From Aneurinibacillus soli (GTDB lineage Bacteria; Bacillota; Bacilli; Aneurinibacillales; Aneurinibacillaceae): 64,000 nt of DNA. A program made the translations under genes and the position numbers. The notes under the pieces were generated by a model that saw only the letters and a program-made list of their open reading frames with translations, was not told the origin of the DNA and searched no databases. This document shows positions 20,960-54,253 of this stretch, one piece after another (the stretch's first letter is position 1; every line of letters begins with the position of its first letter). The stretch lies in NCBI RefSeq assembly GCF_002355375.1, contig NZ_AP017312.1:3847001-3911000 (forward strand), read 5' to 3'.

Positions 20960-21114
20960 AACAAGAAAAAGTTATGCTAGAAAAGCAGGAAAAAGGTGCA
21001 AGGAATCAGGATTTCTCCTTTTTTCTCACACCTTTTTTCCGCTCTTTTGCACAACTTTATTTCAATTTTGCTACGAGTTTATTTTATGTGGCACAGGTTT
21101 ATTTTTTGGTTACA
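20960..21114 (+). repeat. Diverged solo right end of an older related transposon
   Basis: These 155 bases match the last part of the 462-bp repeats (about 90% by eye), including three packed sites GCACAACTTTATT, GCTACGAGTTTATT and GGCACAGGTTTATT and the terminus GGTTACA (21108-21114). It is followed by ACACA, the same five bases found after the intact right end at 62163. It is therefore a remnant of an earlier element at the same attachment point; its left part is missing. Confidence 0.8.
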
Positions 21115-21119
21115 ACACA
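21115..21119. repeat. Target-site duplication, left copy (ACACA)
   Basis: Five bases ACACA directly before the left terminus TGTTCCG. They are repeated at 62164-62168 directly after the right terminus CGTTACA. A 5-bp duplication is the rule for Tn7-like insertion. Confidence 0.85.
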
Positions 21120-21581
21120 TGTTCCGAATTAATAAAGTCGTGCTACCCAATCCCCCTTCAACCCGCATTCCTATGCCACCTAATTTATCCCATTTGAAAT
21201 AAAGTCGTTCACGAATCGCTCATTTTCCCGATTTTTTTCTCCATTTTTTCTGCCACAACTTTATTCTTTTATAAATAAAGTCGTGCTACAAAGGAAAGGG
21301 ATTGGGGGCACAGGTACAGGCTTTTTTTCTGCCTTTTTTCATGCTTTTGGGGTTCGTAGAACCCTCCTCTCTTTCTTTTCAATCCTTGTTATAATAAGGT
21401 TTTTTCACTTTTCATCAGCTTTTTAAACCAGGAAAAAGGTATGGTATCAAAACAAGAAAAAGGTGCAAGGAATCGGGATTTCTCCTTTTTTCTCACACCT
21501 TTTTTCAGCTCTTTTGAGCAACTTTATTTCGATTTTGCTACGAGTTTATTTAATGTGGCACGGGTTTATTTTTTCGTTACA
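21120..21581 (+). repeat. 462-bp mini-element copy A (complete left and right Tn7-like ends)
   Basis: Identical to 61702-62163 by eye. Left-type sites (AATAAAGTCG...) are at 21131-21146, 21198-21213 and 21274-21289, spaced 67 and 76 bases. Right-type sites are at 21516-21528, 21537-21550 and 21557-21570, about 20 bases apart. One inverted site lies at 21252-21265. Three dispersed left sites and packed right sites reproduce the TnsB-site layout of Tn7. The roughly 220 bases between the ends contain no gene. Confidence 0.88.
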
Positions 21582-21633
21582 TAGTAGGAATAAGGATTAA
21601 AGAAAAAGGTAACTTACTCACCTTCTCCACCAT

Positions 21634-22749: not shown

Positions 22750-22777
22750 ATTAGACGTTCCTTTCAATTTATCGAGA

Positions 22778-26453: not shown

Positions 26454-26471
26454 GGATATCATCCCCTTCAA

Positions 26472-27644: not shown

Positions 27645-29153
27645 TCATTTTTCTGATATGTATTGGATTAAAGACTTGATTTTCTTGTTTCCTCCTCCAA
27701 ATCCTGCTTTCAACTGAATTTTATATACCGTAAGTCTTTCACCATTCTTATTCATTTCATCAATTGCCCATTTAATTTTTCGCACCCGATAACTTTCAAT
27801 ATCTTCAGTTACCTCTTTTAAATACTGTTGGGTTTTTACAAGATTATCATTTAAAAACCATCTCTTAACACCAATCGTTCTTCTTATATTACTCGGAACA
27901 ATCCGTATTGGTTTTCCTTCTGTATGTAAAAGCTTTTCTACAGCTTTTTTTGCAAGTACTAAACACGTTTCATCTCTCTTCTCCCAGTCTACAGTTTCAG
28001 TTTTTTCCTTTCTTATTTTAGTCTTGGGAGTTACTTCATCATACCAATCCTTATCATGAGCGTATATCCACGTATGAAGACCTTTACCTAATCGCTTTAA
28101 TTCACTTCGATTAGCTTCTGGATTAGCTTCAATCAATTTTAACCATTCTCTTCTTTTTTCTCCAATTGAATAGGAAGGCATACGATTTCCTACGACCGCT
28201 CGTTTACCAATTGCTGTATTACTCTCAAACAGTTCTTCTACGCCAATCTCCAAAAATTGCAGAAAGAGAATATGTCTCAGGGGACTTCTGTTCTTGTTGT
28301 TGTTTCTGACAAAGAGCCTTAGCCAGTTTGCTTCTTGTTTAACGTCTATACTACTTTGCATTAGCTCTAAATAGCCCGATGGATAAAAATACGAAAAGGC
28401 CTCTAACAGCTTAGCTATATACAAAGTACCGCCCTTAGATGCAAATCCCTTTTTCCTCAACTTATCAATGTAAAATTTTATAATAAAGGAAAGCTCCTTC
28501 CTCGCTTGATTACGAAACAATAAATATGAAGCATTCTCCATGTACTTCAAATTCAGTTCTCTGACTTGATTTGAATAAAAATCCTCTGTTAAATCAGCAT
28601 TACATGTCTCCTCATCCGCACACAAAAAATCATTTCGGCTGTCTGTTATTACTACGTTGCTGTTTTTAAAAAGAACCTGATGCTTTGGACAGTACAAAGC
28701 CCCAGGAATTTGGGGAAGTCTTCTCCAATAACTTTCTCCCAATTTCTCCATATCTTCTTTAAAGCATAGAGGGCAATATTTTAAATAGTTATCCGACTTA
28801 ACTTTGCTTCCGGCCATTCCAACCATCGTCTCAATCGATTTGCCATTTTCTTTAACCATACCATTAAACACCAAGTCTGATTTTTCGCGAGATAAGAAAG
28901 CTGTATAAAACGGATACATGGTATGATTTAAAATAACCTCCTGTACGGACAGCTTAGACGCAGGAGGAAGATTTGCTATGAATGCACTTAAGTTTTGTGG
29001 GAACAGAACTGATTTCCGTCCCATCCTATTATATATTTTGAATAAGTCCCATTCTAAAGCACGTTTACTAAGCATTCCGCACATTTGCTTATACCTGCAA
29101 ACAATGCTAAACAACAATTCATCCTGATATATGAGAGGCAAGAAGTTTATCAC
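27645..29153 (-). CDS. tnsD: Tn7-like target selector TnsD (TniQ family)
   Basis: The 502-aa product has the TniQ N-terminus INFLPLIYQDELLFSIVCRY and a zinc-binding segment YCPLCFKEDMEKLG...LYCPKHQVLF (CPxC...CxxH, about residues 125-165). The long C-terminal part carries several helix-turn-helix-like segments. TnsD binds a fixed attachment site and recruits TnsC. The candidate site here is the 3' end of rlmD next to the right end. GTG 29153 overlaps the tnsC stop as GTGA and follows AAGAAGG. The length matches TnsD (508 aa in Tn7) rather than short CRISPR-type TniQ. Confidence 0.92.
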   Translation of the reverse strand: MINFLPLIYQDELLFSIVCRYKQMCGMLSKRALEWDLFKIYNRMGRKSVLFPQNLSAFIANLPPASKLSVQEVILNHTMYPFYTAFLSREKSDLVFNGMVKENGKSIETMVGMAGSKVKSDNYLKYCPLCFKEDMEKLGESYWRRLPQIPGALYCPKHQVLFKNSNVVITDSRNDFLCADEETCNADLTEDFYSNQVRELNLKYMENASYLLFRNQARKELSFIIKFYIDKLRKKGFASKGGTLYIAKLLEAFSYFYPSGYLELMQSSIDVKQEANWLRLFVRNNNKNRSPLRHILFLQFLEIGVEELFESNTAIGKRAVVGNRMPSYSIGEKRREWLKLIEANPEANRSELKRLGKGLHTWIYAHDKDWYDEVTPKTKIRKEKTETVDWEKRDETCLVLAKKAVEKLLHTEGKPIRIVPSNIRRTIGVKRWFLNDNLVKTQQYLKEVTEDIESYRVRKIKWAIDEMNKNGERLTVYKIQLKAGFGGGNKKIKSLIQYISEK

Positions 29154-30652
29154 TTTACAACACCTTCTTGCCAAATACGCATATTATCAATGTATCCCTT
29201 CTCCAACAAAATCTGATAAGCCGACCTCTCACTTTTACTTGCTTGTTTCAGTAAACTCCTTAAATCATCTTCACTGTAATCAATATTCTTAGCTTTGGAT
29301 TCTTTGGGAACTATTGTTGTTTTTGGAATTCTAATTTGCTTTTGCTTTAATTCTTGTGCCACTTTATTGATTTTTTTCGCATTCGGAATGGAGTTATCTT
29401 TCTTTTGGGCCGTACCTTCGGATAGCTCTACTCTTCGCAAATCCTCATACTGAACCATTTTATATGGATTCTTCGATTTTATTGCTTCCAACATCGGCTT
29501 CATCAACTTGAACTGCTCTTTAGCAACCTTGTTGACCATATCAGCCGTAAATTCTTCTTTCCCACTGGAAATAGCCATCATCTGGACATTTACAAATAAT
29601 TTAACGATTAAGTCCGAAACCCCTTGTGTTTCTTCATAAAACACTTTTATCAATTCTTCATTTAAAGGTGTAAACTTCTGATTCCACTGGTATTTCCATA
29701 TGGACTCTAACAAGAAACGAAACTCTTTACCATTCTCCATGTTATTCCAAATGATTTCTCCGTTACCCGAAACTCGCCTTGCAATTCTAAACTCATTTTG
29801 AAAAATTGCATAGGACGCTGGCGTACCAATGAAAAGCACAGGTACACCAAATGAATTCATGAGCGTTACAAAATAGTTCATCATTTGCTGTACTCCACGA
29901 TTCTGCAGATGTTGAATTTCATCAATGACAAGCATTCCTAAACCTATGTTGTGGGCAACTTGCCCCATCAAAGGCAACATGGCATCAGTAGAAAGATTTC
30001 GAGAGACATGTTTTTGAAAAGTATTTGTGCCAAGAAGTTCATCGACCTTCATGAAAAACTGCAAAGTCAACGCTTTCAGACTGGAATTGTGGGGTGTTTG
30101 CAAAGTTAAATGGGATAGCTGGATTTGATTAAAATGTTGATCATTGTAATGATTGTGCACAATGATTTGAGGAATATTACTAAGGATTCTATTTACGGTA
30201 GTGGTCTTGCCCATACCCGAATATCCGATAAGAGTTGCACAACTTGCGGTAGTCCGAAAATTCGATCTACTGTTTATATCGAAGGATCTGTTAATAATTC
30301 GTTTCCCTGTTTCGTTGATGTATCCCCTGTATTCCTTATCAAACGGATTTCTTGCTATATATCCCTGATATAACAACGAAAAAATTACGTTCCAAATGTC
30401 CACATGAATCGGCAAGGGTTGAAATAACTTGTACAATCTTTGAATCATATGAAGCCTATAGGAACCGTCCCAGTTACGTTCTTCTACGTTAAAAGAAATG
30501 GGTAACATTAAATTCTTAATAATGGTTTGTTTATTCATCAATGGAGGAAGGGTTTGTATAAATGGATTACTATTGTATTCTTCCAAAGGAAATTCATTAT
30601 AGGAAGCCTCCGTTGCCTCCATTCCATTATCCATAAAAATCCTATTCATCAT
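29150..30652 (-). CDS. tnsC: Tn7-like transposition regulator TnsC (AAA+ ATPase)
   Basis: The 500-aa AAA+ ATPase has Walker A GYSGMGKTTTVNRIL (about residues 143-157) and Walker B GMLVIDEIQHL. It links the target-selector TnsD to the TnsAB transposase and provides target immunity. The C-terminal 100 residues are Lys-rich, where Tn7 TnsC contacts TnsA/B. ATG 30652 is preferred because GGGGGG lies nine bases upstream; the frame is open eleven codons further. It overlaps tnsB by 11 bases and tnsD by 4. Confidence 0.93.
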   Translation of the reverse strand: MMNRIFMDNGMEATEASYNEFPLEEYNSNPFIQTLPPLMNKQTIIKNLMLPISFNVEERNWDGSYRLHMIQRLYKLFQPLPIHVDIWNVIFSLLYQGYIARNPFDKEYRGYINETGKRIINRSFDINSRSNFRTTASCATLIGYSGMGKTTTVNRILSNIPQIIVHNHYNDQHFNQIQLSHLTLQTPHNSSLKALTLQFFMKVDELLGTNTFQKHVSRNLSTDAMLPLMGQVAHNIGLGMLVIDEIQHLQNRGVQQMMNYFVTLMNSFGVPVLFIGTPASYAIFQNEFRIARRVSGNGEIIWNNMENGKEFRFLLESIWKYQWNQKFTPLNEELIKVFYEETQGVSDLIVKLFVNVQMMAISSGKEEFTADMVNKVAKEQFKLMKPMLEAIKSKNPYKMVQYEDLRRVELSEGTAQKKDNSIPNAKKINKVAQELKQKQIRIPKTTIVPKESKAKNIDYSEDDLRSLLKQASKSERSAYQILLEKGYIDNMRIWQEGVVK

Positions 30653-32765
30653 AGTCACTTTCCCCCCACTCTCTAAACATGGCAAATTCGTCTATTTCAT
30701 CATTCAATTCATCAGAAAATTCCTTAAACACCGATTCTTCTTTTGCTTTCTTTCGTTGCAACATCCGCTCATTTCTCTGATTTTCCTTGATTCCTTTAAT
30801 TCTCTGTGATTTGCTCTTGCTGTGGTCTTTTTCAGCTTCCGTTCTTTCTCTGGCTTCTTTTACAATGTTCTCTATCTCACTGTACAGTTTTATTTTTTCT
30901 TGCAGTTCCTTTTCTTTATTCTTACTGTCTATTTCCTGCTCATGCTTTTTAAGCTGTTCAATTTCATTCACCCCTTTATTCGAGTACATGGACAAGTGTT
31001 CTAAAAGACTAAATTTATGTAACTCTCCATTTTCATCAAACATAAGCAACTCCGACAAATCCATTGGGTTGTAGCAAATTTTAACCTTTTTACTGCCTTC
31101 GATTCGTGCCTTTTGAAACCATCCATTTTTCAAGGCATACTCTGAAGCAAAAAGTAACTTACGATAGGACAAACCTCTGGCAGTTAAAGTTGCATAGTCT
31201 GTGGGAAATAAGTGTGTTTTAATCACTTTTTCTGGTAGGATTCGTAATTGACCTTTTTTATATTTCAGTCCATGCTCCCAAATCTTGATTGGAATTTTTT
31301 CTACCTTTTTCTCAATCATCGTTTCATCTAAAACATATTCATTCAACACATGATGATTATTGTGAAATAAAATGCACTTGATTACGATTTTTGTAAATTC
31401 ATCAAGCGATAACGTGCCCTTCAGACGATAATCATATTCGCCACGCTCTTTTCCTTTCTTGTTCCCGTTAACTACCACACCGTCTGCGAAGGGCTTTACC
31501 TTCAAATTAAGTATATTGAAGCTGGATTCTATGATTCCCTTAAAATCTGCATGATAAGGGGGTGTTTGCTGTATAGTTATCCCTAAGTTCTCGATTGCAT
31601 TTTCAATCTGACTACTAACAAGTTCCCCTCGGTCTGTAAGGATGCGTTGAGGAACACAGAACGGGAATTCCTCATCTGTAATGTCCATTCCATATTTTCT
31701 GCACAGCCCCACCTTTGATGTCATGCTATTCGCAAGAGCTACCATTGCACCAGAGTACGAGTTAAGCGATTCAAAACCTATGTTAAATCCCAGTATTACA
31801 CGTGAGTATATATCTACTACTAGGAACAATATTGGTCTTCCAACGATAAGATCTCGATTGAATGAAGAGACCAAGTAAATATCAAACATCGTACTATCAA
31901 TTTGGAAAAGTGTTCCTGGCCCTGTTCCAGCATCTTGAGTGGAATTCCCTATGATCGCTCGATAATTCTGCTGATACACTCTTGTACCATTTCTACTGAT
32001 TATTTGTTTGGTACTATTGTTTGTCTTCCTGAACCAGTAAAGAAACTGTTCATAGGTCGGCAGTTTCTTCATCTCAACTAAAATAGGTATTCTAACTCCG
32101 CTTTCTTCTACTGTTTCCGTTGTAAAATAGTCCCGCAAGATTAATTCATAAGTTGTTTTCAAACTATTTTTTCGATGATTGTAATAGTAACGATTCAATC
32201 CTACTTTAAAAAATTTTTTAATGTTGTCGTCAATATTTACACCTACATTTTCATTCTTTTGACGTGGGCGACCACGCTTTTTCTCTCCTACCTTTCGTTC
32301 TTTCCCTCTCGCACCACATCTAAAATAATTGGGTAACAAACCACTTTTGATTTTACCTCCTTTTAAATATTTGATAAGGTATTTCTTTAACCCGTTGTAA
32401 CTAATATTAAAAGTTTCCATTGTTTTTTTTATAGCTGTTTGACGAAATTTACTGATATACATATGTTCTTCATTTACCAAGTTGCTTTTGAAAAATGATA
32501 CAATCTCCCAGGAATGATCTCGTTTCATTTTCTCAATATTATTTAGCTCTTCTTCGGGAACAGCTCGACTATAAATATCCTCTTCTACTACAATGATTTC
32601 TCGATTTTTATGAAGGATCAAAAAGTCTGCTCTGGTAACGGGGTAGGGCCACCTACTACTGTCCATATCGATGATATATATAATAGAAGTAACTGGATTG
32701 ATAAATAAAATCCGTATTACTTTTCCATTCCCATACTTAAACAACATGTTTTCTACCAGTTTCAC
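30642..32765 (-). CDS. tnsB: Tn7-like DDE transposase TnsB
   Basis: The 707-aa product has an N-terminal DNA-binding part, then an rve/DDE core with Asp290 (FQIDSTMFD), Asp378 (ILTDRGEL) and Glu413 (KGIIESSF). The spacings of 88 and 35 equal those of Tn7 TnsB (Asp273, Asp361, Glu396). It binds the end repeats and joins the 3' ends to the target. The C-terminal 120 residues are highly charged coiled coil, where TnsB normally contacts TnsC. GTG 32765 follows GGGGGGG. All catalytic residues are present, unlike in TnsA. Confidence 0.94.
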   Translation of the reverse strand: MKLVENMLFKYGNGKVIRILFINPVTSIIYIIDMDSSRWPYPVTRADFLILHKNREIIVVEEDIYSRAVPEEELNNIEKMKRDHSWEIVSFFKSNLVNEEHMYISKFRQTAIKKTMETFNISYNGLKKYLIKYLKGGKIKSGLLPNYFRCGARGKERKVGEKKRGRPRQKNENVGVNIDDNIKKFFKVGLNRYYYNHRKNSLKTTYELILRDYFTTETVEESGVRIPILVEMKKLPTYEQFLYWFRKTNNSTKQIISRNGTRVYQQNYRAIIGNSTQDAGTGPGTLFQIDSTMFDIYLVSSFNRDLIVGRPILFLVVDIYSRVILGFNIGFESLNSYSGAMVALANSMTSKVGLCRKYGMDITDEEFPFCVPQRILTDRGELVSSQIENAIENLGITIQQTPPYHADFKGIIESSFNILNLKVKPFADGVVVNGNKKGKERGEYDYRLKGTLSLDEFTKIVIKCILFHNNHHVLNEYVLDETMIEKKVEKIPIKIWEHGLKYKKGQLRILPEKVIKTHLFPTDYATLTARGLSYRKLLFASEYALKNGWFQKARIEGSKKVKICYNPMDLSELLMFDENGELHKFSLLEHLSMYSNKGVNEIEQLKKHEQEIDSKNKEKELQEKIKLYSEIENIVKEARERTEAEKDHSKSKSQRIKGIKENQRNERMLQRKKAKEESVFKEFSDELNDEIDEFAMFREWGESDYDE

Positions 32766-32782: not shown

Positions 32783-33550
32783 TTATAAAAGAATATCTTT
32801 AACCTTGTGACCCAAATTGATTTTTTCACTCATGTTAACTGTAAGCTTTTTCTTTGCGATTAAATATCGAAAGAGATACAACCCTGTTCCAGTAGCTATC
32901 CCTTCTACTTGGTCAAAGCTTTTTACTACATCCTTTACCTGCTTGTCCATATTTTTCAATAGGTGTGTATGCAAGATATCCGATAATGGCTCTTTACCTG
33001 TTTCACTATCCTCCAACAAAGTCTCTCTAACCCATTGCAGGTTATTGGCCACTTGTTTCGGTAATTGTTTATCCGTAATCACCTTCCAATTAACCCCTTT
33101 TACTTCCCAGTATCTCCGTTCTATCTCCAGTTTTTCAAACGTAATTCTTTTATCTAACTTGGATGAGTTTTTTATTGTTCTTGCGACATGTATTTCATTT
33201 CCATCCGCATCTATTACCGTTAAAACAAAGTTCGTACAGATGACCAGTTGCTCTCCCGTTTCTTTATCACAAAATTTATCAAAACGTAGATTTTCTTTAT
33301 GATCGATTACTTCCATGACATCGAGAAGTGGGTAGCTTTCTCGAATATCAATCACGTTGTCATTAAACTCGAAAGTTAAGAAGGCACGCAACTGATTATC
33401 AGAATGTAGGTGATGAATCCGTCCCGTTTTTATTCCCATTATTCTTGTTGCTCTTCCCTTACTGGAAAAGTCGTGAATTTTCGTCCAGGGAACATAGTCT
33501 TTCCCCGTTCCCTGCCCTCTTCCTTCCTTTATATATCGTTTAAATCCCAT
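32783..33550 (-). CDS. tnsA: Tn7-like endonuclease subunit TnsA with substituted catalytic residues
   Basis: The 255-aa protein aligns without gaps to Tn7 TnsA around IKEGRGQGTGKDYVPW, KTGRIHHLHSD and IDIRESYPLL, so position assignments are firm. Tn7 Glu63 corresponds to Gln (codon 33392-33394, CAG) in HLHSDNQLRAF. Tn7 Asp114 corresponds to Asn (codon 33230-33232, AAC) in ICTNFVL. Lys132 is kept (ARTIKNSS). Each change is one base from Glu/Asp. TnsA normally cuts the 5' ends, so this version should be unable to do so. ATG 33550 is chosen behind GGAGA. Confidence 0.9.
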   Translation of the reverse strand: MGFKRYIKEGRGQGTGKDYVPWTKIHDFSSKGRATRIMGIKTGRIHHLHSDNQLRAFLTFEFNDNVIDIRESYPLLDVMEVIDHKENLRFDKFCDKETGEQLVICTNFVLTVIDADGNEIHVARTIKNSSKLDKRITFEKLEIERRYWEVKGVNWKVITDKQLPKQVANNLQWVRETLLEDSETGKEPLSDILHTHLLKNMDKQVKDVVKSFDQVEGIATGTGLYLFRYLIAKKKLTVNMSEKINLGHKVKDILL

Positions 33551-33734
33551 CTTCTTCTCCACGCATTCTATTTCCCTTCAACAAGGCTTGGACTTTTCCA
33601 AAAACTATTTTATTTACCAATGGTGTATGACTCCCCTCGATAATTACATCGCCGTGCCTCAACACACCCTTATAAAAATCATTCTTCAAGATAGTCGGCA
33701 TAGCACATTCTTTTATTGCTGTTGTTCCTATCAC
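33540..33734 (-). pseudogene. Fragment of a large serine recombinase
   Basis: About 53 residues (ILKNDFYKGVLRHGDVIIEG then HTPLVNKIVFGKVQALLKG) match the middle 'Recombinase' domain of large serine integrases. That domain has the typical pattern ILkN..YiG...y...G.HepiI....F..vq..L. No catalytic domain or C-terminus is present, and the frame ends at tnsA codon 4. The remnant lies immediately upstream of tnsA and so marks a recombination junction in the island's past. Confidence 0.65.
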
Positions 33735-35388: not shown

Positions 35389-35566
35389 GTGTGATTCAAC
35401 ACACATTCCTTAAAGGTATACCTTTAAGGATATTAAAAACTGGTAGACTTCAATGTTGTTAAAGGTTTAAAAACATTTTAAAAAACGTTTATTAAATAAC
35501 ACACACATTTACAAACACTTTAGGTATAATTCGATTAAAGACTAATACATGGAGTGTTTGTAAATG
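35389..35566 (+). promoter_or_regulatory. Inverted-repeat-rich region upstream of the resolvase (candidate res site/operator)
   Basis: Three inverted repeats lie within 180 bases. GTGTG-ATTCAA-CACAC is at 35389-35404. A perfect 24-base palindrome (TCCTTAAAGGTA and its complement) is at 35407-35430. CATTTACAAACACT is at 35506-35519 with its complement at 35553-35566, flanking a TATAAT box (35525-35530) and reaching the start codon at 35564. Several dyads before a divergent-type serine resolvase gene is the layout of Tn3-family res sites and also gives autoregulation. Confidence 0.6.
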
Positions 35567-36193
35567 AATCAGAAAATCTTTGCATACATAAGAGTTAGTG
35601 CCAAAGACCAGAACGAAGACAGGCAGTTAAAAGAAATGTTAGATATAAGTATTAGTGAAAGGGATATATTCATAGATAAAGAAAGTGGTAAAGATTTTAA
35701 TAGACCGCAGTACCAAGCGTTGAAGCAGTGCTTACGTGAAGGTGATCTTCTTTATATCAAGTCGATCGATCGTTTTGGGCGGAATAGCAAAGAGATTAAA
35801 CGAGAATGGGAGTACATAACGCAAGAAATTAGAGCAGACATAAAAGTACTGGATATGCCATTGCTTGATACAACTCAACACAAAGACACACTAGGAACAT
35901 TTGTAAGTGAATTAGTTCTGCAAGTTTTATCCTTTGTAGCTGAGAAAGAGCGAGAGAACATCAAACAACGCCAAGCGGAAGGAATAGCCATTGCAAAAGC
36001 CAAAGGTAAACATTTAGGCAGACCACAAATGAATGTGCATACATTAAGCAAAGAACAACAGCAAACATTAGAACAGAACTATCAGGCATGGAAGGATAAA
36101 CAGATAACAGGTGTACAATTCATGGAGAAGCTAGAAATCAAGAAAAATACATTCTACAAAATCGTAAAGGAATATGAGAAGTCACTATCATAG
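35564..36193 (+). CDS. Small serine recombinase (resolvase/invertase family)
   Basis: The 209-aa product has the resolvase N-terminus FAYIRVSAKDQNEDRQLKEM with catalytic Ser10, LLYIKSIDRFGRNSKEI with the conserved Arg pair, and a long E-helix ending in a HTH tail (GRPQMNVHTLS...GVQFMEKLEIKKNTFYKIV). The size equals that of Tn3/Tn5053-type resolvases. It lies 2 kb from tnsA but on the other strand. A role resolving cointegrates made by the tns system is inferred from the TnsA substitutions. Confidence 0.9.
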   Translation: MNQKIFAYIRVSAKDQNEDRQLKEMLDISISERDIFIDKESGKDFNRPQYQALKQCLREGDLLYIKSIDRFGRNSKEIKREWEYITQEIRADIKVLDMPLLDTTQHKDTLGTFVSELVLQVLSFVAEKERENIKQRQAEGIAIAKAKGKHLGRPQMNVHTLSKEQQQTLEQNYQAWKDKQITGVQFMEKLEIKKNTFYKIVKEYEKSLS

Positions 36194-38143: not shown

Positions 38144-39592
38144 CTACAAAGATACGGTATTCCCCTTATTCCCCTGCGATGGGTGTGAAGTATCAAGCAA
38201 AACAAACGGGTTGACCAGATAGGTTAGTCCCTTGTCATTTCCAGAGTTAACCTTAGGTTTAATATACATATGCTCCTCCAAGGTACGAAGAACGGATTTT
38301 AAAGTGTTTGCATTCTTGCACCGCTTCTTGGTTGCTTGCCAAATATCCTGATACTTAACTTCTTCTCCTTTACCACGAATAGACTTTAAAACGTACTGAG
38401 CATCCTCAATGCTTTGATCCGTTCCCATGGCATCAAAGGCAATCTTGGCCTGCTGGATAAAATACTCCGAGAATTGAATAGCTTTCTCTACAGTTGCCAG
38501 TGCGATCTCCTGGGGAACCCCGCCAGTGTTTTCCGCAACATGTAAAAGGCCAGCAATTCGGTAGATCACGCCCACATGTTTGTTGCCCCACTCCACGATT
38601 GGTGCAAGCTCTCCTCTTTCCGGGGCAAGCTTCTTTTCGATTGATGTTTTAAAGCGAATCATCCTCTCATCCGCTTCTCGGCTTAAAGTTAAAACTTTAG
38701 GATGATCAGGGACAGGTTGAGCAAGCAATTGCTGTATCAGTCTTTCATACTGCTCCTTTACCTTCTGTTCAATGAGTCGCGGTCTTGGATTTCTAAATCC
38801 CACAAACGAATTAGGAAACGTAAAAAGGAATCGAGCCAGTAGCCCTCTTTGTTGGTAGATTTTATTTTTAGCCAAGTTTTTTATTACCTCAGGCTGAACA
38901 GTGATGCCTAAGGTTAGTAACGGAGAACGTAAAATTTCTGTACGGGTCATTCGATCAACGACGCAATATTCACCAGAATATGCCTTCAAAAACACCGTAA
39001 AGTGTGAGCTTTTGTCATTCGAATAACGACCTGCTATATTCTCAAACACATCACCTTCAGGAGAGAATATCCCAAGCCGTTCTTGATTTTCGAGTAAGAT
39101 TCCGACTAACTTTTCCACTGTTACATCATCCGCAGTCAGACGTGGCGGATTAAGTGGAGAGACCGCCTTCTCCCCAACTTGTGTTTGTTTCGACTCTCTC
39201 CAGTCCTGTTGCAACATTTGTTCATATTCATATACTGGAGAAAGGAGATGACGAAAAACTGGACTCTTTCCTGTTCCAGAAGGTGAAGCAATGAGCACGA
39301 ATAAATTCAGCGGTTCCATCCACTGCCCATACGGGTTTACGACATATTTTTTGGCTACTGCTAGCGCTAGAACGGCTAAAGACAGCATCCCTCCTATATG
39401 TGTGACAGTTTGGGTTTCTTCTGCCACCTGTGTAATATAGTCGCCGATAACCGGTGGCAGAAGTTCAATAGGAAATGGGCCTGTTTTTTGCTGACCAAAC
39501 ACTGTTAACGGAATAGGCTCACTCCATCCATCAAATTTTTGTTGTAGATCTGCAGAGTTATTTTTGAGGAACATCGTTTGTTTATTTTCCAT
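38144..39592 (-). CDS. DUF3987 (YfjI-like) P-loop protein
   Basis: The 482-aa product has FVLIASPSGTGKSPVFRHLL (Walker A, about residue 105), IFSPEGDVFENIAGRYS and VDRMTRTEILRSPLLTLGIT, the order seen in DUF3987 proteins of plasmids, SaPI-like islands and phages, usually with primase/helicase roles. The last 100 residues form a winged-helix-like module (GEEVKYQDIWQATKKRCK). AAAGGAG precedes ATG. It is separate from the BREX operon (540-base gap with two terminator-like hairpins) and may derive from the replication module of an ancestral plasmid or island. Confidence 0.8.
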   Translation of the reverse strand: MENKQTMFLKNNSADLQQKFDGWSEPIPLTVFGQQKTGPFPIELLPPVIGDYITQVAEETQTVTHIGGMLSLAVLALAVAKKYVVNPYGQWMEPLNLFVLIASPSGTGKSPVFRHLLSPVYEYEQMLQQDWRESKQTQVGEKAVSPLNPPRLTADDVTVEKLVGILLENQERLGIFSPEGDVFENIAGRYSNDKSSHFTVFLKAYSGEYCVVDRMTRTEILRSPLLTLGITVQPEVIKNLAKNKIYQQRGLLARFLFTFPNSFVGFRNPRPRLIEQKVKEQYERLIQQLLAQPVPDHPKVLTLSREADERMIRFKTSIEKKLAPERGELAPIVEWGNKHVGVIYRIAGLLHVAENTGGVPQEIALATVEKAIQFSEYFIQQAKIAFDAMGTDQSIEDAQYVLKSIRGKGEEVKYQDIWQATKKRCKNANTLKSVLRTLEEHMYIKPKVNSGNDKGLTYLVNPFVLLDTSHPSQGNKGNTVSL

Positions 39593-40129: not shown

Positions 40130-43100
40130 TTAATTTACAAACAAAGATTGGGTACTGGAAATCTCTTGTACAATTTGCCCATTCTTAATCACATATAAAA
40201 CAGTTCTATCTAGCACATCTCCCAAATCTTTCTTTTGAACTGAAGATAGCTCAAATGCTGGATTATCCGTCAAAATCATAAACCGACCTTCCCCTTCATA
40301 TGTCTCGCTATAAAAATCAACAAGCCCAAAAGCCGGAAAGACCTGTAGTTTCGTCCGTCCATTCAATGCTTCATACTGCTGTACCACATTCGCCCATTCC
40401 TCTGGAAAAAGCCTGTTCATCTGCTGTCCGTTAGGTACAATTCCTATTTGCAAACACCGATGGGTCGGTCGTAATGTAATACTTCGCTCCCGCTCAATCT
40501 CTAGCATTCGTTCTTCACTACGCTCCTCAATCTCTATCAACTGAGCATTCATTTGGTTAATTAAAGCACTGTTGCGGTTCTCTTCATTCATAGATTGATA
40601 TTCCGTCAGCTTACGCACGGTATCCTGATACTGCGCCTCAAAGGTACGCTGTAGAAATTGACTCTTTTTATTCAGTTGCTGTTCCCGTTTTTGCTTTACA
40701 AGTAACAAACGCTTTTGCGCCTCACGAATCGCCTGCGCCCGGAATGCACTATTTTCTATCAAGGGTTGTACAGTGCATTCACCCTGCCATTGATTTTGAA
40801 AAATCCAGTATGGGGAAAAGCAAGTAAAGGAACCGTCCTCTTTTTGAGCAATGTACATCAATTCCCTAGCCAGTTCACGCCCTGTTCCATCAGTAACACT
40901 CATTTCATGCACTTCTACCAGTAACGGAGAAGAAACAGGGAAGGAAAGCTGAATACGATCTAAAGCTACTTTTTGCATTAACTGCTCAGCAAATGCCATA
41001 GATAATTGAAATAAAGGATGATCATTTATCAGCAGTTCAACTGCATCACTTTCTTTATCCACATTTCCAGTGAAACGAAGTGACGCTTCTTTTGTAGACA
41101 AACGAATACTATGCTTGCGGGCAAATTCACGTACCGATTTTGGCAATCGTTCTATGCGAAACGTATCATTCGCTTCATGCACTTTTACCCGATTATTGGC
41201 TAACACTTCTCTGGAAAACTCGGCATACGCACGTACCGGTATACTCGTCACAGAAAGCATATATCGTTCGCGCTTCATACCCGGCAAATCGACAGTTTGT
41301 TCGTCCATCTTTTCTTGCGCGGCAATTTGTAATAACCGCTTATGCTCTTCAGATATTGTTTTTTCCAATCCATCAATGATTTCATCCAAGCGTTCCCGAT
41401 TCATAATCGCTTCTTGCATTAAATGTTCAAGGCTTACATACTGATCTTCAATAACCTCACCCATGAAATCATAGACTAGATCACTTCCGAGGTCTTCACG
41501 CATTTGTTCCATTTTATTAAGCAGGCGATACATCACTTCACCCTCGCGTGTATCAACAGCAACAAGATTAAAAACGAATGTTTCATTCTTCTGGCCGATT
41601 CGGTGAATCCGTCCCATTCGCTGTTCTAGCTTATTTGGATTCCACGGAATATCATAGTTCACCATCTGGTTACAAAACTGCAGATTTATTGATTCGCCCC
41701 CGGCATCTGTTGCCAACATAATGGAACATTCACTCTTAAACAACTCAACCTGACGCCGACGTTCGTCCATCGAATAATACCCTACGATTTTTGCAAGCTT
41801 CGGTACTCGTTCTAACAACCGTTTTTCTAGGTAATGCAACGTATCGGCGAACTCAGTAAAAATCAGAATCTTTTCGCCGTTTTTTAGTAGACCATTCTCT
41901 CCAAAGATGGTTTGTTCCAGCTCTACGTATTTTCGCTCCGCCGTATTCTCGTGTAAATACTTGCTCTTCTCCACCAAATTTTCTAACACAAATATCTCTG
42001 CCTGCAACTCTTCAACATTTACTGAAGTGGTCACAGCCTCAAGTTTATCCTCCAGATCTTGCTGTACCTCAGTCGTCTCTTCTTCGTATGCGGTTATATC
42101 AATTGTGTTTATTTCTCTTAGGACTGCCTCTCGCTCTTCCAGCGATTGTTCTAATAGTGCTCGAAGCTTTTCATAACGACGCTTGAGTGAAAAATGAACA
42201 GCTTCAACCGAGGAGCTGAGACGACGTTGAAGAACCATCATGGCAAATGTGATGTTACGGTTTCCACTCTGCTCTCCCCGGTTAAAATGTTCGCGCACAT
42301 AGGCCGTTACCTCTTCGTATAGCTCTTTTTCCAATCGAGACATATTGAAAGCAACGGTTTGCGTGGTTCGTTTCGGAAATAATGGTGTATTGTCGAAGGT
42401 TACCATACTTTCCTTCAACCGCCGGATGATAAACGGATTACTTTTTTCTCGAAGCGTTTCACCGGCTCCCACCTGTGAAAAGATGTCCTCATCAATCAAT
42501 TGCATAAGATGACGGAAATTCTCTATATCCCCTTTATGAGGTGTAGCCGTTAGTAATAGTCGATGATTTGCATGACGCAATAATGCTTCTCCTAATTGAT
42601 ACAGTCTGGTTCGCTTCGTTTTTTTCTTTTTTACTCCGTGAGTGTACGCGGCCATTTTGTGAGCTTCATCTACAATAATCAAATCAAAATTAGCTTCCAA
42701 TACATAGCTTTTTACATCATCCCTTGCCGCCCAATATACAGAAGCCAGGCATAATGAGTGTTCGAGAAATGGATTACGTCCTCCGTTTTCCCGTAGGGTA
42801 GCCCTGGTGATAATCTTAAATTCTTCTCCGAACTTTTGCTCTAATTCTTCCTGCCACTGATACAATACAAGCGGTGGAGTCAATATAAGGATGCGTTCTG
42901 CCCCTTTCCGGGCGCGCAACTCTCGAATTAACATACCAGACATAATCGTCTTTCCTGCCCCTGGGTCATCAGCAAGAAGAAACCGAACTCTCGGGGACTG
43001 AAGCATCCGATCATAAACTGCCTCAATCTGATGTGGCAATGGCATAATTTTTTATTACCAAGCGCCCGAGCGTCCGAAAATTTCCGATCAATATCCATGG

Positions 43101-43338
43101 CATAAAAGTGAAGAATCCGCTGAGCTTCAGATGCCTGTATGGTTTCACTTTCTGCTTGTACACTCAATCTCTCTACTATTTCAACCTGAAATGGCTCCAG
43201 TAGGTTTTGGTAATAGGTCTGGGTGGAACGGCCTAAAGCCTCGATTTCAAAAAACACTCCATCAATCGACTCACACTTTTTTATCTCAACCGTCTCTGGC
43301 CAATGCGGGCCACGTACGATTTCCCCTACAGATAGCAT
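40130..43338 (-). CDS. SNF2-type helicase of the BREX cluster, split by a one-base shift
   Basis: Two frames make one roughly 1069-aa protein. Codons from ATG 43338 (MLSVGEIVRGPHWPETVEI) run into an A6 run at 43048-43053. The rest (MPLPHQIEAVYDRML onward) is in the -1 frame from ATG 43045. Adding one A gives ...LGNKKIMPLPHQIE without loss. Motifs are LADDPGAGKTIMSG (Walker A), LIIVDEAHKM (DEAH), LLLTATPH and, in the second lobe, DAGGESINLQFCNQ and EQRMGRIHRIGQK. This matches the BrxHII/DrmD-like helicase class. It follows pglZ by 14 bases. Ribosomal -1 slippage, re-start at ATG 43045 or true loss are all possible. Confidence 0.82.
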
Positions 43339-43352
43339 GCCTTTCCTCCTTC

Positions 43353-45878
43353 CTACATCAACATGTCATAGATCCGTACGTCAAATAGTTCTTCCCTGTA
43401 TAGCTTTGTTTTCGAGTCTGTAACATCTTCCATCCGTAAGACGCATTTCTCACCCACACTCACGCTGTGCTCCCTTAACGAGAAAAATACATCTAACTGT
43501 CGGTCTGCTGTATCACCAGTTAAATCAAATACAAGCGTTGTTTCGTTAGAAATCCGCACCTCATCTTTATAAAAAGCAACCCGAAGATGGCGAAGCATTC
43601 TTTCTTCAGATATTTTTTGCTCTTGGAAGAAGGACACCTTGAATCGGTAATTCGTCAGGATACGTTCCCGATTCATAACTCGTACATCTACTCGCTCTTC
43701 CTGCTTTTTCTTCGCTAAACCACGGATTTGATGATACATAATCACCGGCACAACCGTTTCCTGTGGCATGGCACCACCATGGACAAACTTCAATCCACCA
43801 CCCTGTATTTGAAAACGGTTTGTACCAAGAGCAATGGCCGCCTCCTCTTCCAATCCAAGATAAGTAAGTGAGACTTTTTTCGCTCCAATCGGAACAGACA
43901 ACCCGTATCCAAGAGCAAAACGGCGGTTTCCATCAATGATATCACCACTAACCGCCATCATTTTATTCGGCGCATCGACTTTCCGCGTCTGATATAAGAA
44001 GCCGTGGTCAGTCGTAATAAAAATCCGTACGGCACTGTACGTACCAACTAACTTTTGAACGACACCTTCTAAATCACGAAGGGTATCTTCCACTGCACCA
44101 TACGCATAGTTCTCCGATTTTTGTTTATCGCCAACGGAATCAATTCGATCATGATACAAATAAATTAATCGGCGTCCTCGAATCCATTCCGCCTGATTGG
44201 ATGCCATAAATTCGGTTACATTCATTGCTCCTGCTGTCGCTTCCCGTTTCTGTAATACAGCTTCTCGCTTATCTAACCCCCGGGTACTCATGCCGTCTCG
44301 CAGAACCGTCTTTCCTTGATAACCGAATGTGCGTCCTGGCAGTAAGCTGGCCATCCCTAATTGTGTGTATGAAGGAAGCGAAGCCTGCATTGAGCGCAAC
44401 TCAACTTCTGCATTCATACGTTTTTGCAACCGTTCTGCTAACTCAACTCCAGCCTCATATCGTAAAGCATCAGAAATAATAACAAATACGCGCTCTGTTG
44501 TTTTCTCAATGAAAGGATGAATGAGTTGCTGATAGAATGATTGCTGTTGAAGCATACCAGGAATCGGCCATTTTTCCTTACCCTGCTGTTCTAGAAAATC
44601 GTCCGTCCATTGTGCGACTTTGCTTAGATAACGATGCTCATACCAATCCGTCATCTGCTCAATTAACTGAGCAAATCGTTCCATATAATTGATTCGCTCA
44701 TATGCATATATCATCTTGCGGTAATGCAAATCAATTTTGTAGACACTTTCCGTATATTGCTTCATCCATTCTTCGCCATTTTTTGGCGCGAACACCTGTT
44801 GGAAACTATGTTTTTGTTCCAATATAGAAAGTGCCGCTTCCAACACCGCATACAGCTTATCAAATCCTTTTTCGTACCAGTGTTTGGTACGCCGTACAAA
44901 CAAAATATCCTGCCATTTACCCGTATGTGCTGTTTCCTGTGTACATTCATCCAGCAATTTCTCCACCAATAATTGCTCAATTACACGAAATGTATCACAG
45001 CGCGAATATGCTTCGTAAGATTCTTCTAACAACCACTCACGTATCGACCACTTTGCTTCAACATCAGCCAGGTATTCTTCCAGTACTACCGTTTCCTTTT
45101 CTGTTCCTTTAAGCCAGTCCTCTAATAAAATCCGGCAGGTATTTTGAAGACGAGAAGGATAGCGGTACGGGAATTGTACCGGAAGGTCAAAATCGATTTC
45201 ACTGGAAAAATGTGCATACACAAATGTCTGAAAAAGCGTCTGAAGAGAAATCTCTTCCTGTTCAATCCCGAAATAGGCACGCACATGTTGCCAAAGAATA
45301 TCTGTACTGAAAAACTTACTAATATCCTGATAAACAGGATTTTTTTCTTCATCCAGTCCCCTTAACAGAATATGTTTAATAATTGTCGGCATTGTTGCAC
45401 TGGGGCTTCCGGATAATACGGCCAACATTCCAAGAATGACCTGTTCTTGATTCGGATTCCCTTGTAACAAATTTTCTAACTTTTGGGCTCGCCGCTTGTC
45501 ATTAAAAAAAGCACGATATTGTGCAAACAAATCACGCACCGACAATTGTTCGACATGGTAACGGTGCATCAACATAGCAATGTCATCTGCTTCAAACGTT
45601 TCACTGTATAACACAATATCAAGCAAGCTATTATCTATATCATCCGGTCGTGGAAACCGAGCATAAATCAAGTAAGGGGTATCCGGGTCATTCACTTCTA
45701 GTTGATACTTCGTAGCAAAAGCATTATTTTCATGGAGTTCCCACACTTGCACACCAAACTCCGTCATTGCTTCCTGAATCGGCTCTAATTCCCGATTTGG
45801 TACTGTATCATACCAAAATACGATTTGACGCCCCTGTCCCGATTTTGGCAACGCCTCAAACCTTTTTTGCAACTCCAT
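43353..45878 (-). CDS. pglZ: BREX protein PglZ (alkaline-phosphatase superfamily)
   Basis: The 841-aa product has the PglZ core in its second half: VIISDALRYEAGVELAERL (about residue 465), then IRIFITTDHGFLYQTRK (about 620) with the metal-binding TDHG. The N-terminal half is the helical region usual in type 1-like PglZ (FWYDTVPNRE at the start). PglZ is the core protein shared by all BREX systems. ATG 45878 follows GGAG by seven bases; the frame is open four codons upstream. Confidence 0.93.
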   Translation of the reverse strand: MELQKRFEALPKSGQGRQIVFWYDTVPNRELEPIQEAMTEFGVQVWELHENNAFATKYQLEVNDPDTPYLIYARFPRPDDIDNSLLDIVLYSETFEADDIAMLMHRYHVEQLSVRDLFAQYRAFFNDKRRAQKLENLLQGNPNQEQVILGMLAVLSGSPSATMPTIIKHILLRGLDEEKNPVYQDISKFFSTDILWQHVRAYFGIEQEEISLQTLFQTFVYAHFSSEIDFDLPVQFPYRYPSRLQNTCRILLEDWLKGTEKETVVLEEYLADVEAKWSIREWLLEESYEAYSRCDTFRVIEQLLVEKLLDECTQETAHTGKWQDILFVRRTKHWYEKGFDKLYAVLEAALSILEQKHSFQQVFAPKNGEEWMKQYTESVYKIDLHYRKMIYAYERINYMERFAQLIEQMTDWYEHRYLSKVAQWTDDFLEQQGKEKWPIPGMLQQQSFYQQLIHPFIEKTTERVFVIISDALRYEAGVELAERLQKRMNAEVELRSMQASLPSYTQLGMASLLPGRTFGYQGKTVLRDGMSTRGLDKREAVLQKREATAGAMNVTEFMASNQAEWIRGRRLIYLYHDRIDSVGDKQKSENYAYGAVEDTLRDLEGVVQKLVGTYSAVRIFITTDHGFLYQTRKVDAPNKMMAVSGDIIDGNRRFALGYGLSVPIGAKKVSLTYLGLEEEAAIALGTNRFQIQGGGLKFVHGGAMPQETVVPVIMYHQIRGLAKKKQEERVDVRVMNRERILTNYRFKVSFFQEQKISEERMLRHLRVAFYKDEVRISNETTLVFDLTGDTADRQLDVFFSLREHSVSVGEKCVLRMEDVTDSKTKLYREELFDVRIYDMLM

Positions 45879-46042
45879 AATAATCTCCATAAAAAGTGTT
45901 CCTCTCTACAACATTCTTTTATACAAATTTTAACACGAAGTATGAACTCTCCCAAACAAAAAGGATAGAGCGATCGCCTATCCCAATAAACACCTCTTTT
46001 TCATTCTATTTTAAAAAATATAAAACAAAAGCTACCTTACCT

Positions 46043-46447
46043 TTACAAACAATTTCTTGTTATGTATTGCCACACTTTTAATCCAGTTTCTTCATTCATC
46101 GAGACCATAGTTTGTCCCCAGACCACGCTGTATCCTACAATCTCACTTACCTTGGACGCCAGCAAAGGATTACGTAGATACTGGAACTTTTCTAAATTCA
46201 TGTAATGTTCTTCATCTACATCTCCACGGTAATCTTTTACCTCTACGATTCCTGTTGCTACTCCTCTGGCAATAATTCCACGTTGATTGCTATATAGAAA
46301 CACCATTTCATTTGCTTTGATAGCATCAATCTTGTGTTTCCATGGATCATAATAAGCGGCACACTTTTGCATACCAATCATATCCACTTCATCTTCTCCG
46401 GCAGGATTGTTGGTTCGGTTTGTGTTAACAATGTATGACTTCCCCAC
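46043..46447 (-). CDS. EVE/PUA-like domain protein inside the BREX operon
   Basis: The 134-aa product resembles EVE domains (SYIVNTNRTNNPA, AAYYDPWKHKID, ANEMVFLYSNQRGIIARGVA, ending in LKVWQYI), which bind modified bases in DNA or RNA. GTG 46447 follows GGGGGG by six bases. It lies between pglX and pglZ, replacing no known core gene. A reader of the PglX methylation mark, or of modified phage DNA, is an attractive inference. Confidence 0.75.
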   Translation of the reverse strand: MGKSYIVNTNRTNNPAGEDEVDMIGMQKCAAYYDPWKHKIDAIKANEMVFLYSNQRGIIARGVATGIVEVKDYRGDVDEEHYMNLEKFQYLRNPLLASKVSEIVGYSVVWGQTMVSMNEETGLKVWQYITRNCL

Positions 46448-46551
46448 TTTGTTCCCCCCTAGCTATTTTTTCTTCTATTTAATTTATCAGCATGGTAAAA
46501 GCCTACTATGAAGGAACACTATAAATTCCAGTGTCCCTTGTGACGTGAAAT

Positions 46552-49500
46552 CTATTTTATTTTTGCTAACACATCCTGCAGTTTTGCATAATTTGCTACA
46601 ACCCCATTATCAAGGTCAAGGGTAATCCGCTGATTAGCCAAACTTGCCAATCTCTTATCGAACTCTACCAGTTCCTCTTGTCTTTCCCTCAACAACTTTA
46701 TCCTCTTCTGTGCCGCTGTCTTTTCTTGCCGAGACAGTGAAGGATTAGTCAGGCGATCATTCAATACCTTTTCTTCATGAGTATACTTCGTCTGTAGATT
46801 ATGCAAGTAATTTACCCTTACACCAGCTAATGTTTCTAGTGAATAGCGATGCAAATACACGAGAGCACGGAATCCTTTCTTTTTCCCCGATTCAATCATC
46901 CAGTAAATCGGGCGCTTTTGGTATGTTTGTACATGGTCTTGGTAAAATTCATCAAAGAAATAGCGACGGAGACGTTCTAAAGGTGTTTCATTTTGCTTCA
47001 TCTCTAGCGCTTCAGCTAACCAGTGTAAGTTTTCTTGTAAAGTTTCCAAGCCAAAAATAGCTTTAAGAAATTGCTCAAGTCGGGCAATAATATCATCTTC
47101 AAAATATATCTGATCAGTAAGTGGTAAAATACCATTTGCATCTGGTAAGAATACCTGATACTTTGTAGCATCCCACTCTCCACCGGCGTATGCTAATCCA
47201 GGAATATCAAGCGAATAGCGTCCCATAACACAACCAACAAAATATGATAAGAATGACTTAACTTCGCGCAATTGATGAGCCTGTCGTACTGTTACTTCTT
47301 CATCTGGAACCTCTGGTATCAACTCGTCTTGTAAGCCGTATAAATCAATAAAGATACGGTTTAATTTTTCTTCATTTTGTTGTAACTCGTAAAACTGTTG
47401 CTCAGTATGAACTTTCCAATTGTCATAAACCTCTGCTAACTTGTTACCGTTACGGTGGATAAGGAATGGATGTTGTTGAAAATCCCAAGAACTCTCAAAA
47501 GAGTCCCAGTCATTTTTCGAAAGATTTATATTCCTTTCAGCAATAGTTTGTATTTCCTGATTAGTTGAAGCACTTTGGCTAACAATATATGGAACTAAGG
47601 ATAATGGCCCCTGACTATAATCTAAAGTAGGTGTTATTATATCTAAAATATACTGGGCAACTTTGGTATTCATATATGCTAAAAGCGATAACAAATTATC
47701 ATGCTCAAACATAGTGGTACAAATAGGCCCTTTTTGATCAAATACAAACCCATTGGACACATATCTCATGGAAAATTTCCCACTAGTTACTGCAGACCAA
47801 GTTAAAGATCTTTTGAAATAAAACTCTTTTCCATCATGGCGGTGTCCCTTTAACTTCCGCATCTCATTCAAATGATAATTATTATAAGCTATAATATATT
47901 CGAAGTTTCCATACCATCTTCTAAAATTACCTCCTTTTGTATAGGGGGCATACACTTTTACTGAATTCATAAACTCATCTCTGGTTTTCGCACAGAGGTT
48001 AATACTGTTTAATTTAACTTCAAACCAATATCTTAGAAATCTCGGATTATCTCCAGTGGATAATCCTTTTTTAACCAGGAATTTATTTCCTATATTAGGA
48101 TTTTCATTAAAAACGTCATCGATTTTCTTGCTTCTCCAGTATGCAAGAGGTGAACCTTTGATTTTTTCGAAATGTTTCCCATTAAAACAATAACGGTACC
48201 ATACCTTATCTTTATAAACAGCTTCTTTTACTTTAATAGGTTGAATATCTTCCCCCTTAAATGTTGTTAATCTGATATATTGCCCAATTGTTTCTTTACT
48301 TTGGTTTTGAATCACAAAAGTACATATAGGTACCGTAGCCTCTTTGAAGGAGGAATATTCCAACTGTATTAAACTTGATATACTCTGATGATTAATAATA
48401 TTCTTACGTAACTTTTCATAAGAAGACAAAAACATCCATGTAAATGGTGTCATTAAACCTATATATCCATATTGTTTTGTCATTTGAGTACAACGATAGA
48501 TAAATGATGAATATAGGTCAGCCTTGTAATCTTTATAATTATTTACAAGAAACTCTTTTAAATTAGAGTTATATTTATTGTGATATGGAGGATTTGTAAC
48601 TACTATGTCATATTTGCTTTTTAGCCAATCCGCTTGCTGTAAAACAGGCAACAATTCTTGCTTCAGTTCTCCAGCATACATCTGTTCCGTGAGGTTCCCA
48701 CCATGTTTAACTAGATCCTCAATTTTGGATATGTAGCCTACATAATCAACTTTAGGTGAAATACTTAGCGAACCAAACTGCTTTGCATTCGAAAAAGCAG
48801 AAATTACTTCCTTGATTTCTTCTTTTTGCTGTGAAGTCATACACAATAAATTTATAGAATCTTCTGACGGAAAACGAGCATCAATGAACTCAGCAACATT
48901 TAACTTCAGCTCTTTTGCTTTTCGGAAAAAACGACGACTTTTCTCTCTTGCTTTCATCATGAGTGCAAAGCTTGTCATCTGAACTGCACGCTTGTCGATA
49001 TCCAAACCATACAAGTTTTTTTGTAAAATTAATAATGGGATGTCACTGCTTGCGTACCCTCTACTAGCATACATGTCATACAGCATATCGAACGCGTAAA
49101 CAAGAATGTGCCCTGAACCACAGGCAGGGTCAATAAACTTTACCTCTTCCAACTCCATCATAGTTCCGGGTGGCAGGCTCGATTTCTCATGTTTTAGATA
49201 ATATTCCCATTGCTTAGGCAAATCGCTGTTTGGGTTGATCTCATTCCACATCTTCCCTAGCGAATTTTGCACCATATATTGCACGATCCATTTCGGCGTG
49301 AACAGTTGAGTAGCGGCTGGTAGCTCTTCTTTTGAAACTGTACCTTTATTCATACCAACAATTTCTCGTTGCTTTTCAGAAATATAATATTGGTACAACC
49401 AACCGATAACCTCAACTTGTTGGAAATCTTCTTCGGCAATTTTATCAATCATTTTATGAATGACCGAATCAATATGAAGCAACATATCTGGTAAAAGAAG

Positions 49501-53659: not shown

Positions 53660-53680
53660 ACTTCTCCCCCTCTTCTCGTT

Positions 53681-54229: not shown

Positions 54230-54253
54230 CTCTCTCCCCTTCTCTTTGTTTTT

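Follow-up and report, generated by a model that had tools for sequence, protein, structure and literature searches.

The window, which is the whole 64,000-nucleotide stretch of Aneurinibacillus soli DNA analysed here (contig NZ_AP017312.1, positions 3,847,001 to 3,911,000), contains a tnsABCD island whose TnsA is altered in its catalytic residues. This island is probably an integrated circle that was inserted by the tns machinery with replication of a short mini-transposon (hereafter, mini) and that can later be released by recombination. The loss of the catalytic aspartate is shared by a whole clade of TnsA proteins, and the same island architecture recurs in most of the clade members in which it could be looked for.

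TnsA of the window lacks catalytic residues

The initial annotation of this DNA described a TnsA in which amides replace two catalytic acidic residues, with an alignment free of gaps around both sites and with Lys132 retained, and our analysis agrees with it. Re-read from the window sequence, the minus-strand codons in question are CAG at 33392-33394 and AAC at 33230-33232. The phmmer alignment to Tn7 TnsA (1f1z; E 7e-38) places Gln opposite Glu63 and Asn opposite Asp114, neither site being adjacent to a gap, and Lys opposite Lys132, with a two-residue gap intervening between the sites; the position of Tn7 Gln130 is occupied by Thr. From the catalytic set of a Tn7-like transposon, Glu63/Asp114/Lys132, the window protein has kept Lys alone. 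An AlphaFold2 model of TnsA built from 19 clade members (pLDDT 84.6) has TnsA as its top Foldseek match (1t0f, E 2e-20). It superposes on 1t0f with a VIA Z of 21.2 (rmsd 5.7 over 244 residues) and on 1f1z with a VIA Z of 20.8 (rmsd 5.6 over 246 residues); weak structural matches to non-TnsA structures were disregarded.

Loss of Asp114 is a trait of one clade

TnsA relatives were drawn from genome contigs, at the level of order and class and then from one family, and the pattern at Asp114, first viewed in 37 rows, was placed on a later tree of 64 TnsA rows. Before counting, we removed L030/G196 (the P. acanthi record again), L180/G607 (the L006 locus again), L013 (a fragment) and L015 (a gene identical with that of L011). 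The residue counts cover fetched loci and G135:C18, and leave out two further TnsA homologues, 38-39% identical, on C32 and C26 of G016, the Alkalihalobacillus bogoriensis genome. In another genome, an element with an intact TnsA (G004:C16, L089-L093) lies a few kb past the tnsD side of an altered-TnsA island.

The 25 rows without Asp114 make up one side of a single branch (100/99) that is present in 100% of 200 bootstrap trees, a concentration that is, on this tree, far beyond chance. The initial annotation had raised the possibility that the Gln/Asn pair is fixed in a clade, and this holds in part. Asp114 is replaced in 25/25 rows, by N, S or T, whereas position 63 is Gln in 16/25 and still Glu in 9/25. 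Lys132 is kept in 24/25, and the remaining 39 rows, Tn7 included, all retain both Glu63 and Asp114. Nine of 11 pairs of altered tnsA genes gave dN/dS values of 0.076-0.240 (the other two were saturated), which on this measure places the altered genes under purifying selection. Judged from the alignment and the tree, the loss of Asp114 is a trait of the clade and not one broken gene.

The partner proteins look intact, as had been annotated for TnsB and TnsC of the window. The D, D and E of TnsB are kept in all 18 aligned altered-clade proteins, that of the window included (two short pieces were left unaligned), and TnsC has the Walker B Asp-Glu in 19/19 and the Walker A Lys in 18/19. The exception is G040, in which that piece of TnsC is absent and both TnsB and TnsC are split, so that at least one clade member is broken.

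That TnsA of this clade still cuts, through a relocated active site or with the help of another nuclease, and that its elements are ordinary cut-and-paste transposons, is very improbable. Such a reading can draw on the near-universal Lys132, on the nine rows with Glu63 and on acidic residues other than the catalytic ones that are invariant in the clade. It has to be set against the replacement of Asp114 in every member, a model most of whose length superposes on Tn7 TnsA, and the cointegrate shape of the integrated structures described below.

Two identical minis flank the window island

A 463-bp sequence occurs twice in the window, in direct orientation and without a mismatch, at 21119-21581 and again at 61701-62163; 462 bp of it, from TGT to ACA, constitute a mini (Table 1). 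Each mini has TnsB-site-like AATAAAGTCGTGCTAC-type repeats at one end and their inverted counterparts at the other, and is gene-free, with stop-free stretches never above 80 codons. Two identical 462-bp minis with 5-bp duplications outside them give the island the form of a cointegrate, which supports the initial description of it as cointegrate-like. The TnsB-site-like arrays and the ACACA duplication are those expected of Tn7-like ends, and the tns genes lie between one L and one R end only when the unit is defined by its outermost ends. The older R end remnant beside the left duplication is evidently an earlier insertion at the same site.

The 40 kb between the minis carry tnsABCD, the serine recombinase and, as the main cargo, BREX genes. 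Similar genes occur in the G153 and G310 islands, and BREX phage-defence genes were present in three of six islands compared. The DUF3987 protein is possibly a replication-type gene of the circle. A Pfam scan of window island proteins found no conjugation families among them, and two island proteins without a Pfam match (25710-26471 and 21634-22767) have no similar ORF in five relative loci. At the right edge, the reading frame of the rlmD-type gene crosses the target duplication into the mini (62148-62163), which supplies its stop codon, so the insertion alters only the last residues of the protein.

Table 1. Features of the island and its surroundings in the window.
Feature	Position	Strand	Basis or remark
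Older R end remnant, 90% identical, abutting left target duplication	20962..21114	(+)	
Target-site duplication ACACA, left	21115..21119	(+)	
Mini-transposon, left copy	21120..21581	(+)	L end TGTTCCG..., R end ...CGTTACA
Inner flank TAGTAGG beside left mini	21582..21588	(+)	repeated beside diverged mini elsewhere in genome
tnsD/tniQ target selector	27645..29174	(-)	PF15978, PF06527
tnsC, AAA+ with Walker A and B	29150..30685	(-)	PF13401, PF05621
tnsB, DDE residues present	30642..32765	(-)	synteny, similarity to relatives' TnsB, DDE columns; no Pfam match
tnsA, catalytically altered (E63Q, D114N, Q130T; K132 kept)	32783..33562	(-)	PF08722 and PF08721, alignment to 1f1z, model
Resolvase-type serine recombinase, putatively acting on the two minis	35564..36193	(+)	PF00239
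DUF3987 protein	38144..39592	(-)	PF13148
BREX-type defence cargo: helicase, PglZ, PglX-like methylase, BrxC, BrxB, BrxA	40130..54853	(-)	Pfam
Inner flank AACTA beside right mini	61697..61701	(+)	
Mini-transposon, right copy, identical to left	61702..62163	(+)	own-genome search: both copies 100%
Target-site duplication ACACA, right, at 3' end of rlmD/trmA-type gene	62164..62168	(+)	
rlmD/trmA-type RNA uracil methyltransferase, target gene	62148..63554	(-)	PF05958 and TRAM

Mini-bounded islands recur across the clade

Eleven altered elements had at least 30 kb of sequence upstream and at least 12 kb downstream of tnsA on a contig not bounded by minis, as our repeat test needed. Direct repeats of 293-608 bp span tnsABCD in eight of them: the window, P. 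acanthi (474 bp), G004 (475 bp), G153 (608 bp), G263 (499 bp), G310 (505 bp, with extra nested copies), G664 (477 bp) and G675 (293 bp). The last two, both 100% identical pairs, were drawn freshly after the pattern had been noticed. The two minis of a pair match at 98.7% in P. acanthi and at 100% in the other seven elements, and the islands measure 41 to 65 kb. Outer 5-bp duplications were found in six of the eight (window, P. acanthi, G004, G263, G310 and G664) and were absent at G153 and G675. No spanning mini-type repeats were detected in the other three testable elements (G135:C32, G135:C18 and G040). At the G310 locus (L062-L065, L134-L141) minis are nested and in tandem, one is truncated by another, and an older mini has an inner-type flank; together they record repeated insertions, which were possibly intramolecular replicative events.

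Elements too short for the repeat test or not fetched (G354, G534, G046, G115, G155 and G501) stood outside it, and several others reach into mini sequence. By eye, contigs G374, G210 and G531 start and finish in mini sequence and contig G007 starts and finishes at an inner flank; draft contigs bounded in this way fit either a circle or an island. A single mini or mini edge is present in G288 (seen by eye, without a CTA mark), Abogor, Sporo and Pvini.

Intact elements tend to have a different layout. None of nine has mini-type direct repeats spanning tnsA (G162 has one 93-bp match of 85%), a limited contrast because these controls reach about 40 kb per side at most, three of them less on one side, and only four of the eight positive elements have their repeats within about 40 kb of tnsA. 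In Tn7 itself a transposon end lies beside tnsA. Because inverted ends near tnsA gave clear matches in few of nine intact elements, we used a repeat-array statistic instead, in which an array counts when it exceeds all of 20 shuffles. Such arrays lie within 900 bp upstream of tnsA in 22/37 intact and 1/23 altered elements (Fisher p 1e-5; 23 of the 25 altered elements were scored, the window and G135:C18 being left out, and L185, with about 200 bp upstream of tnsA, entered neither this count nor that of recombinases below). Intact elements therefore tend to have an end beside tnsA and altered ones do not.

Decay, in which the island would be a dead remnant with point mutations and with repeats owed to chance or to assembly, has next to no probability. 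The split TnsB and TnsC of G040 are what it would predict; the repeats, however, sit in chromosome-sized contigs (G000, G153, G263, G310 and G664), four of which also show the 5-bp duplications. We rejected it on the clade-wide replacement of Asp114 together with dN/dS values well below 1.

A CTA/TAG mark adjoins the minis on the inner side

Of 28 inner flanks read, 23 have the trinucleotide CTA/TAG directly beside the mini, as against none of 16 outer flanks (Fisher p 2e-7, computed on 21/26 before G531 was included). Reading into the mini from the island, CTA precedes TGT in 13/16 tnsD-side inner flanks, and TAG follows ACA in 10/12 tnsA-side inner flanks, where G007 was taken from the contig ends. 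The mark is missing from both sides in G263 and G210, and it is also missing in G288. The longest match between inner flanks is CCCTACTA...TAGTAGGG in G153, which is inverted and so is not a target duplication of a mini in the circle. The position of the mark, outside the cut site, suggests that it may be read at both ends by TnsB or by a pseudo-nuclease TnsA, and its restriction to the inside suggests a built-in rule confining integration to the circular form.

These flanks bear on whether the island is instead a composite transposon, with the outermost ends real, the 41-kb unit moving as one piece and the inner ends as passengers. This reading predicts an identical island structure, and the target duplication does lie at the outer ends. 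An inverted mark confined to the inner flanks is nevertheless unexpected at a passenger junction, a cointegrate step is the simplest source of identical minis, and TnsA has lost Asp114 throughout the clade; we regard a composite transposon as unlikely.

Recombinase genes accompany the altered tnsA

The serine recombinase of the window lies 2 kb upstream of tnsA on the opposite strand, and is predicted to be a dedicated resolvase of the kind that characterizes Tn5053/Tn402. Across the clade a recombinase gene was found upstream of tnsA in 20/25 altered elements (16/20 and 4/5 in two draws) and in 0/37 intact ones, among which other kinds of recombinase could have been missed since the search profiles derive from altered elements. 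The contrast, uncorrected for relatedness, has a Fisher p of 6e-12, or of 3e-10 at 18/25 when the window and G155, whose recombinase genes reach beyond 1.5 kb upstream, are counted as misses. The 37 controls are 17 and 22 intact elements after removal of a duplicate and of an element with insufficient sequence; the upstream stretch read in them was mostly 1.5 kb, and in nine also 6 kb.

The genes counted encode serine recombinases or tyrosine recombinases, the latter aligned with the catalytic residues of that family. In G374 a serine recombinase replaces the tyrosine one directly upstream of tnsA, and the G534 recombinase is an 87-residue piece. No recombinase was found upstream of tnsA in G263, G210, G501, G007 and G004 (6 kb read; 1.5 kb in G501), and wider scans of the available sequence of G263, G210, G007 and G004 were also empty; G263, G210 and G501 belong to one subclade and G007 and G004 to another. 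A comparison of eight minis, in which palindromes were also sought, yielded no recombination site common to all, and five minis, set against the sequence preceding their own recombinase gene, likewise had nothing in common throughout. By eye, the window and P. acanthi minis share a GGGTTC/GAACCC inverted repeat.

Target genes, solo minis and circular forms

Four of the eight islands (window, P. acanthi, G153 and G664) lie directly against an rlmD/trmA-type methyltransferase gene, at its 3' end, and the gene next to the G263 island is rRNA-methyltransferase-like (PF22435). For G004 the adjacent gene is presumably glmS, a name that rests on reading the sequence by eye because the 70-residue N-terminal piece has no Pfam match. 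The G310 island sits in an older mini, and the window and G263 have an older end remnant outside the island on the tnsD side.

Minis also occur without an island. Three congeners in which TnsA had no match (G002, G005 and G006) have complete minis, 294-296 bp long, that lie between perfect 5-bp duplications: TTTTT in G005, where the mini adjoins an rlmD-type gene, and CCTTC in both G006 and G002, apparently one shared insertion. G006 has in addition a second mini with an imperfect duplication, and partial right ends at two rlmD-type genes. None of the complete solo minis of these three genomes has a CTA/TAG flank. The solo minis fit excision scars, although movement in trans could also have produced them. 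One more mini, diverged and 295 bp long (C1:3987320-3987614; L028, L163), is present in the genome of the window itself; its right flank, TAGTAGGAATAAG, is of the inner type but has no counterpart on the left, and this mini is probably the edge of a decayed island.

Solo minis raise another possibility, that a circle recombines, by RecA or with the recombinase as integrase, into a resident solo mini, the Tn7 machinery having only placed that mini earlier. The structure predicted is the same, outer duplication and inner flanks included, and duplication-flanked solo minis do exist in related genomes, in G005 beside an rlmD-type gene. Yet in seven of the eight islands the resident mini would have had to be identical along its full length, the island retains tnsABCD with tnsA under selection, and G310 and the islands beside older remnants have a target duplication of their own. 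We give this route a small share of the probability.

Searches for a circular or viral form found none among viral contigs (with TnsC and a TnsA alignment) or phages (with TnsA), and plasmid matches to TnsA and TnsC were all below 60% identity. Upstream of tnsA, the P. vini backbone encodes a ParM-like segregation protein (L003:2012-3001) and that of A. bogoriensis a DnaG/DnaB-type primase-helicase (L004:3902-5923); these two proteins suggest that some circles may replicate on their own.

Proposed mechanism of integration and release

In the reading that we prefer, insertion of a circle by replicative tns machinery, the window would hold an integrated copy of a circle of about 40.6 kb comprising tnsABCD, the recombinase, cargo and one gene-free 462-bp mini. 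TnsB would cut the 3' ends of the mini and join them to a site chosen by TnsD at the 3' end of the rlmD-type gene. The 5' strands would stay attached because TnsA is, we propose, a pseudo-nuclease. Replication across the mini, which its shortness would make easy, would then convert the branched intermediate into a cointegrate, with the whole circle between two minis and the 5-bp duplication outside. The circle would be freed, and a solo mini left behind, when the two minis recombine through RecA or through the element's own serine or tyrosine recombinase, and TnsA would now only aid assembly or read the CTA/TAG flank. The replicative reaction, the circle, its excision and the remaining role of TnsA are what we infer from these structures.

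The initial annotation had proposed a naturally replicative Tn7-like element converging on Tn5053. Replicative transposition is favored by the clade-wide loss of Asp114, intact-looking TnsB and TnsC, the recombinases and the cointegrate form. Simple convergence on Tn5053 does not stand, because the L and R ends of each mini enclose neither the tns genes nor the cargo.

Laboratory systems give the precedent for this outcome. TnsA active-site mutants of Tn7, in work of May and Craig in 1996, reportedly integrated the donor backbone between two mini-transposons, which is the arrangement seen here. According to PMC8188705, the D90A mutant of TnsA in a V. cholerae CRISPR transposon gave >95% cointegrates, with the whole donor plasmid between two mini-transposons. 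All these mutants were laboratory-made and acted with helper genes in trans, whereas the arrangement in this clade is natural and clade-wide. The accessible part of PMC10293859 reports 39.1% co-integrates for Tn6022, in which TnsA is present, so cointegrates alone are no proof of a dead TnsA.

Relation to known elements

With Tn7 and canonical Tn7-like elements the clade shares the order of TnsA/B/C/D, TnsB-site-like arrays, TGT...ACA ends, a 5-bp duplication and target sites at the 3' ends of conserved genes, which are of rlmD type in four islands and, as read by eye, glmS in G004. In contrast to them, it has lost Asp114 of TnsA and gained a recombinase gene near tnsA, and its tns genes and cargo are not enclosed by the L and R ends of either of the two matching, gene-free minis that flank the island. 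With Tn5053/Tn402 and the tnsA-less Tn7-like branches it shares predicted replicative transposition and a serine or tyrosine recombinase; unlike Tn5053/Tn402, it keeps TnsA, and keeps it under selection. Tn5053 has its machinery between its ends, and after resolution only the transposon remains, whereas in this clade the whole circle would stay between two minis.

In IS26-type translocatable units a one-copy circle integrates such that two direct copies flank the cargo. The clade resembles these units and pseudo-compound transposons in that a one-copy circle would yield two direct copies around cargo. However, the IS26 transposase is encoded inside the repeat and has no TnsD targeting, whereas the repeated element here is gene-free. 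TnGBS-type integrative and conjugative elements, as far as the available descriptions of them extend, are likewise large and use a DDE transposase as integrase, but that transposase is of another family, and no conjugation family was seen in the window island. We know of no double-mini structure in TnGBS.

The available text of PMC8649781 predicts replicative transposition from the loss of tnsA together with the gain of a resolvase and proposes it for tnsA-less branches; it states that point mutations in tnsA abolish cut-and-paste, and takes serine resolvases in tnsA-bearing elements as not supporting a replicative role. PMC11406308 and PMC10293859, in the portions accessible, class tnsA as separate, fused or absent. 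In the literature covered, which includes little of the subscription literature, we found no description of a natural clade with a non-catalytic TnsA or with tns genes outside the mini ends.

Implications

We tentatively put forward, at somewhat less than even probability, that these elements represent an undescribed class of integrating circles of Bacilli. Replicative Tn7 machinery would serve as the integrase and the gene-free mini as the attachment site, a pseudo-nuclease TnsA would read the mark and thereby restrict activity to the mini carried by the circle, and a tyrosine or serine recombinase would reverse the reaction by recombining the minis, leaving an inert, unmarked solo mini. For engineering, too, systems that insert an entire circle at a selected gene end are of interest. 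The clade shows that tnsA can be present and selected and yet lack the catalytic aspartate. Where the presence of tnsA is read as a sign that serine resolvases do not act in replicative transposition, as in the part of PMC8649781 available, such elements may be misread as cut-and-paste. The clade is a natural counterpart of the laboratory switch produced by TnsA mutants, and it makes the non-cutting role of TnsA testable.
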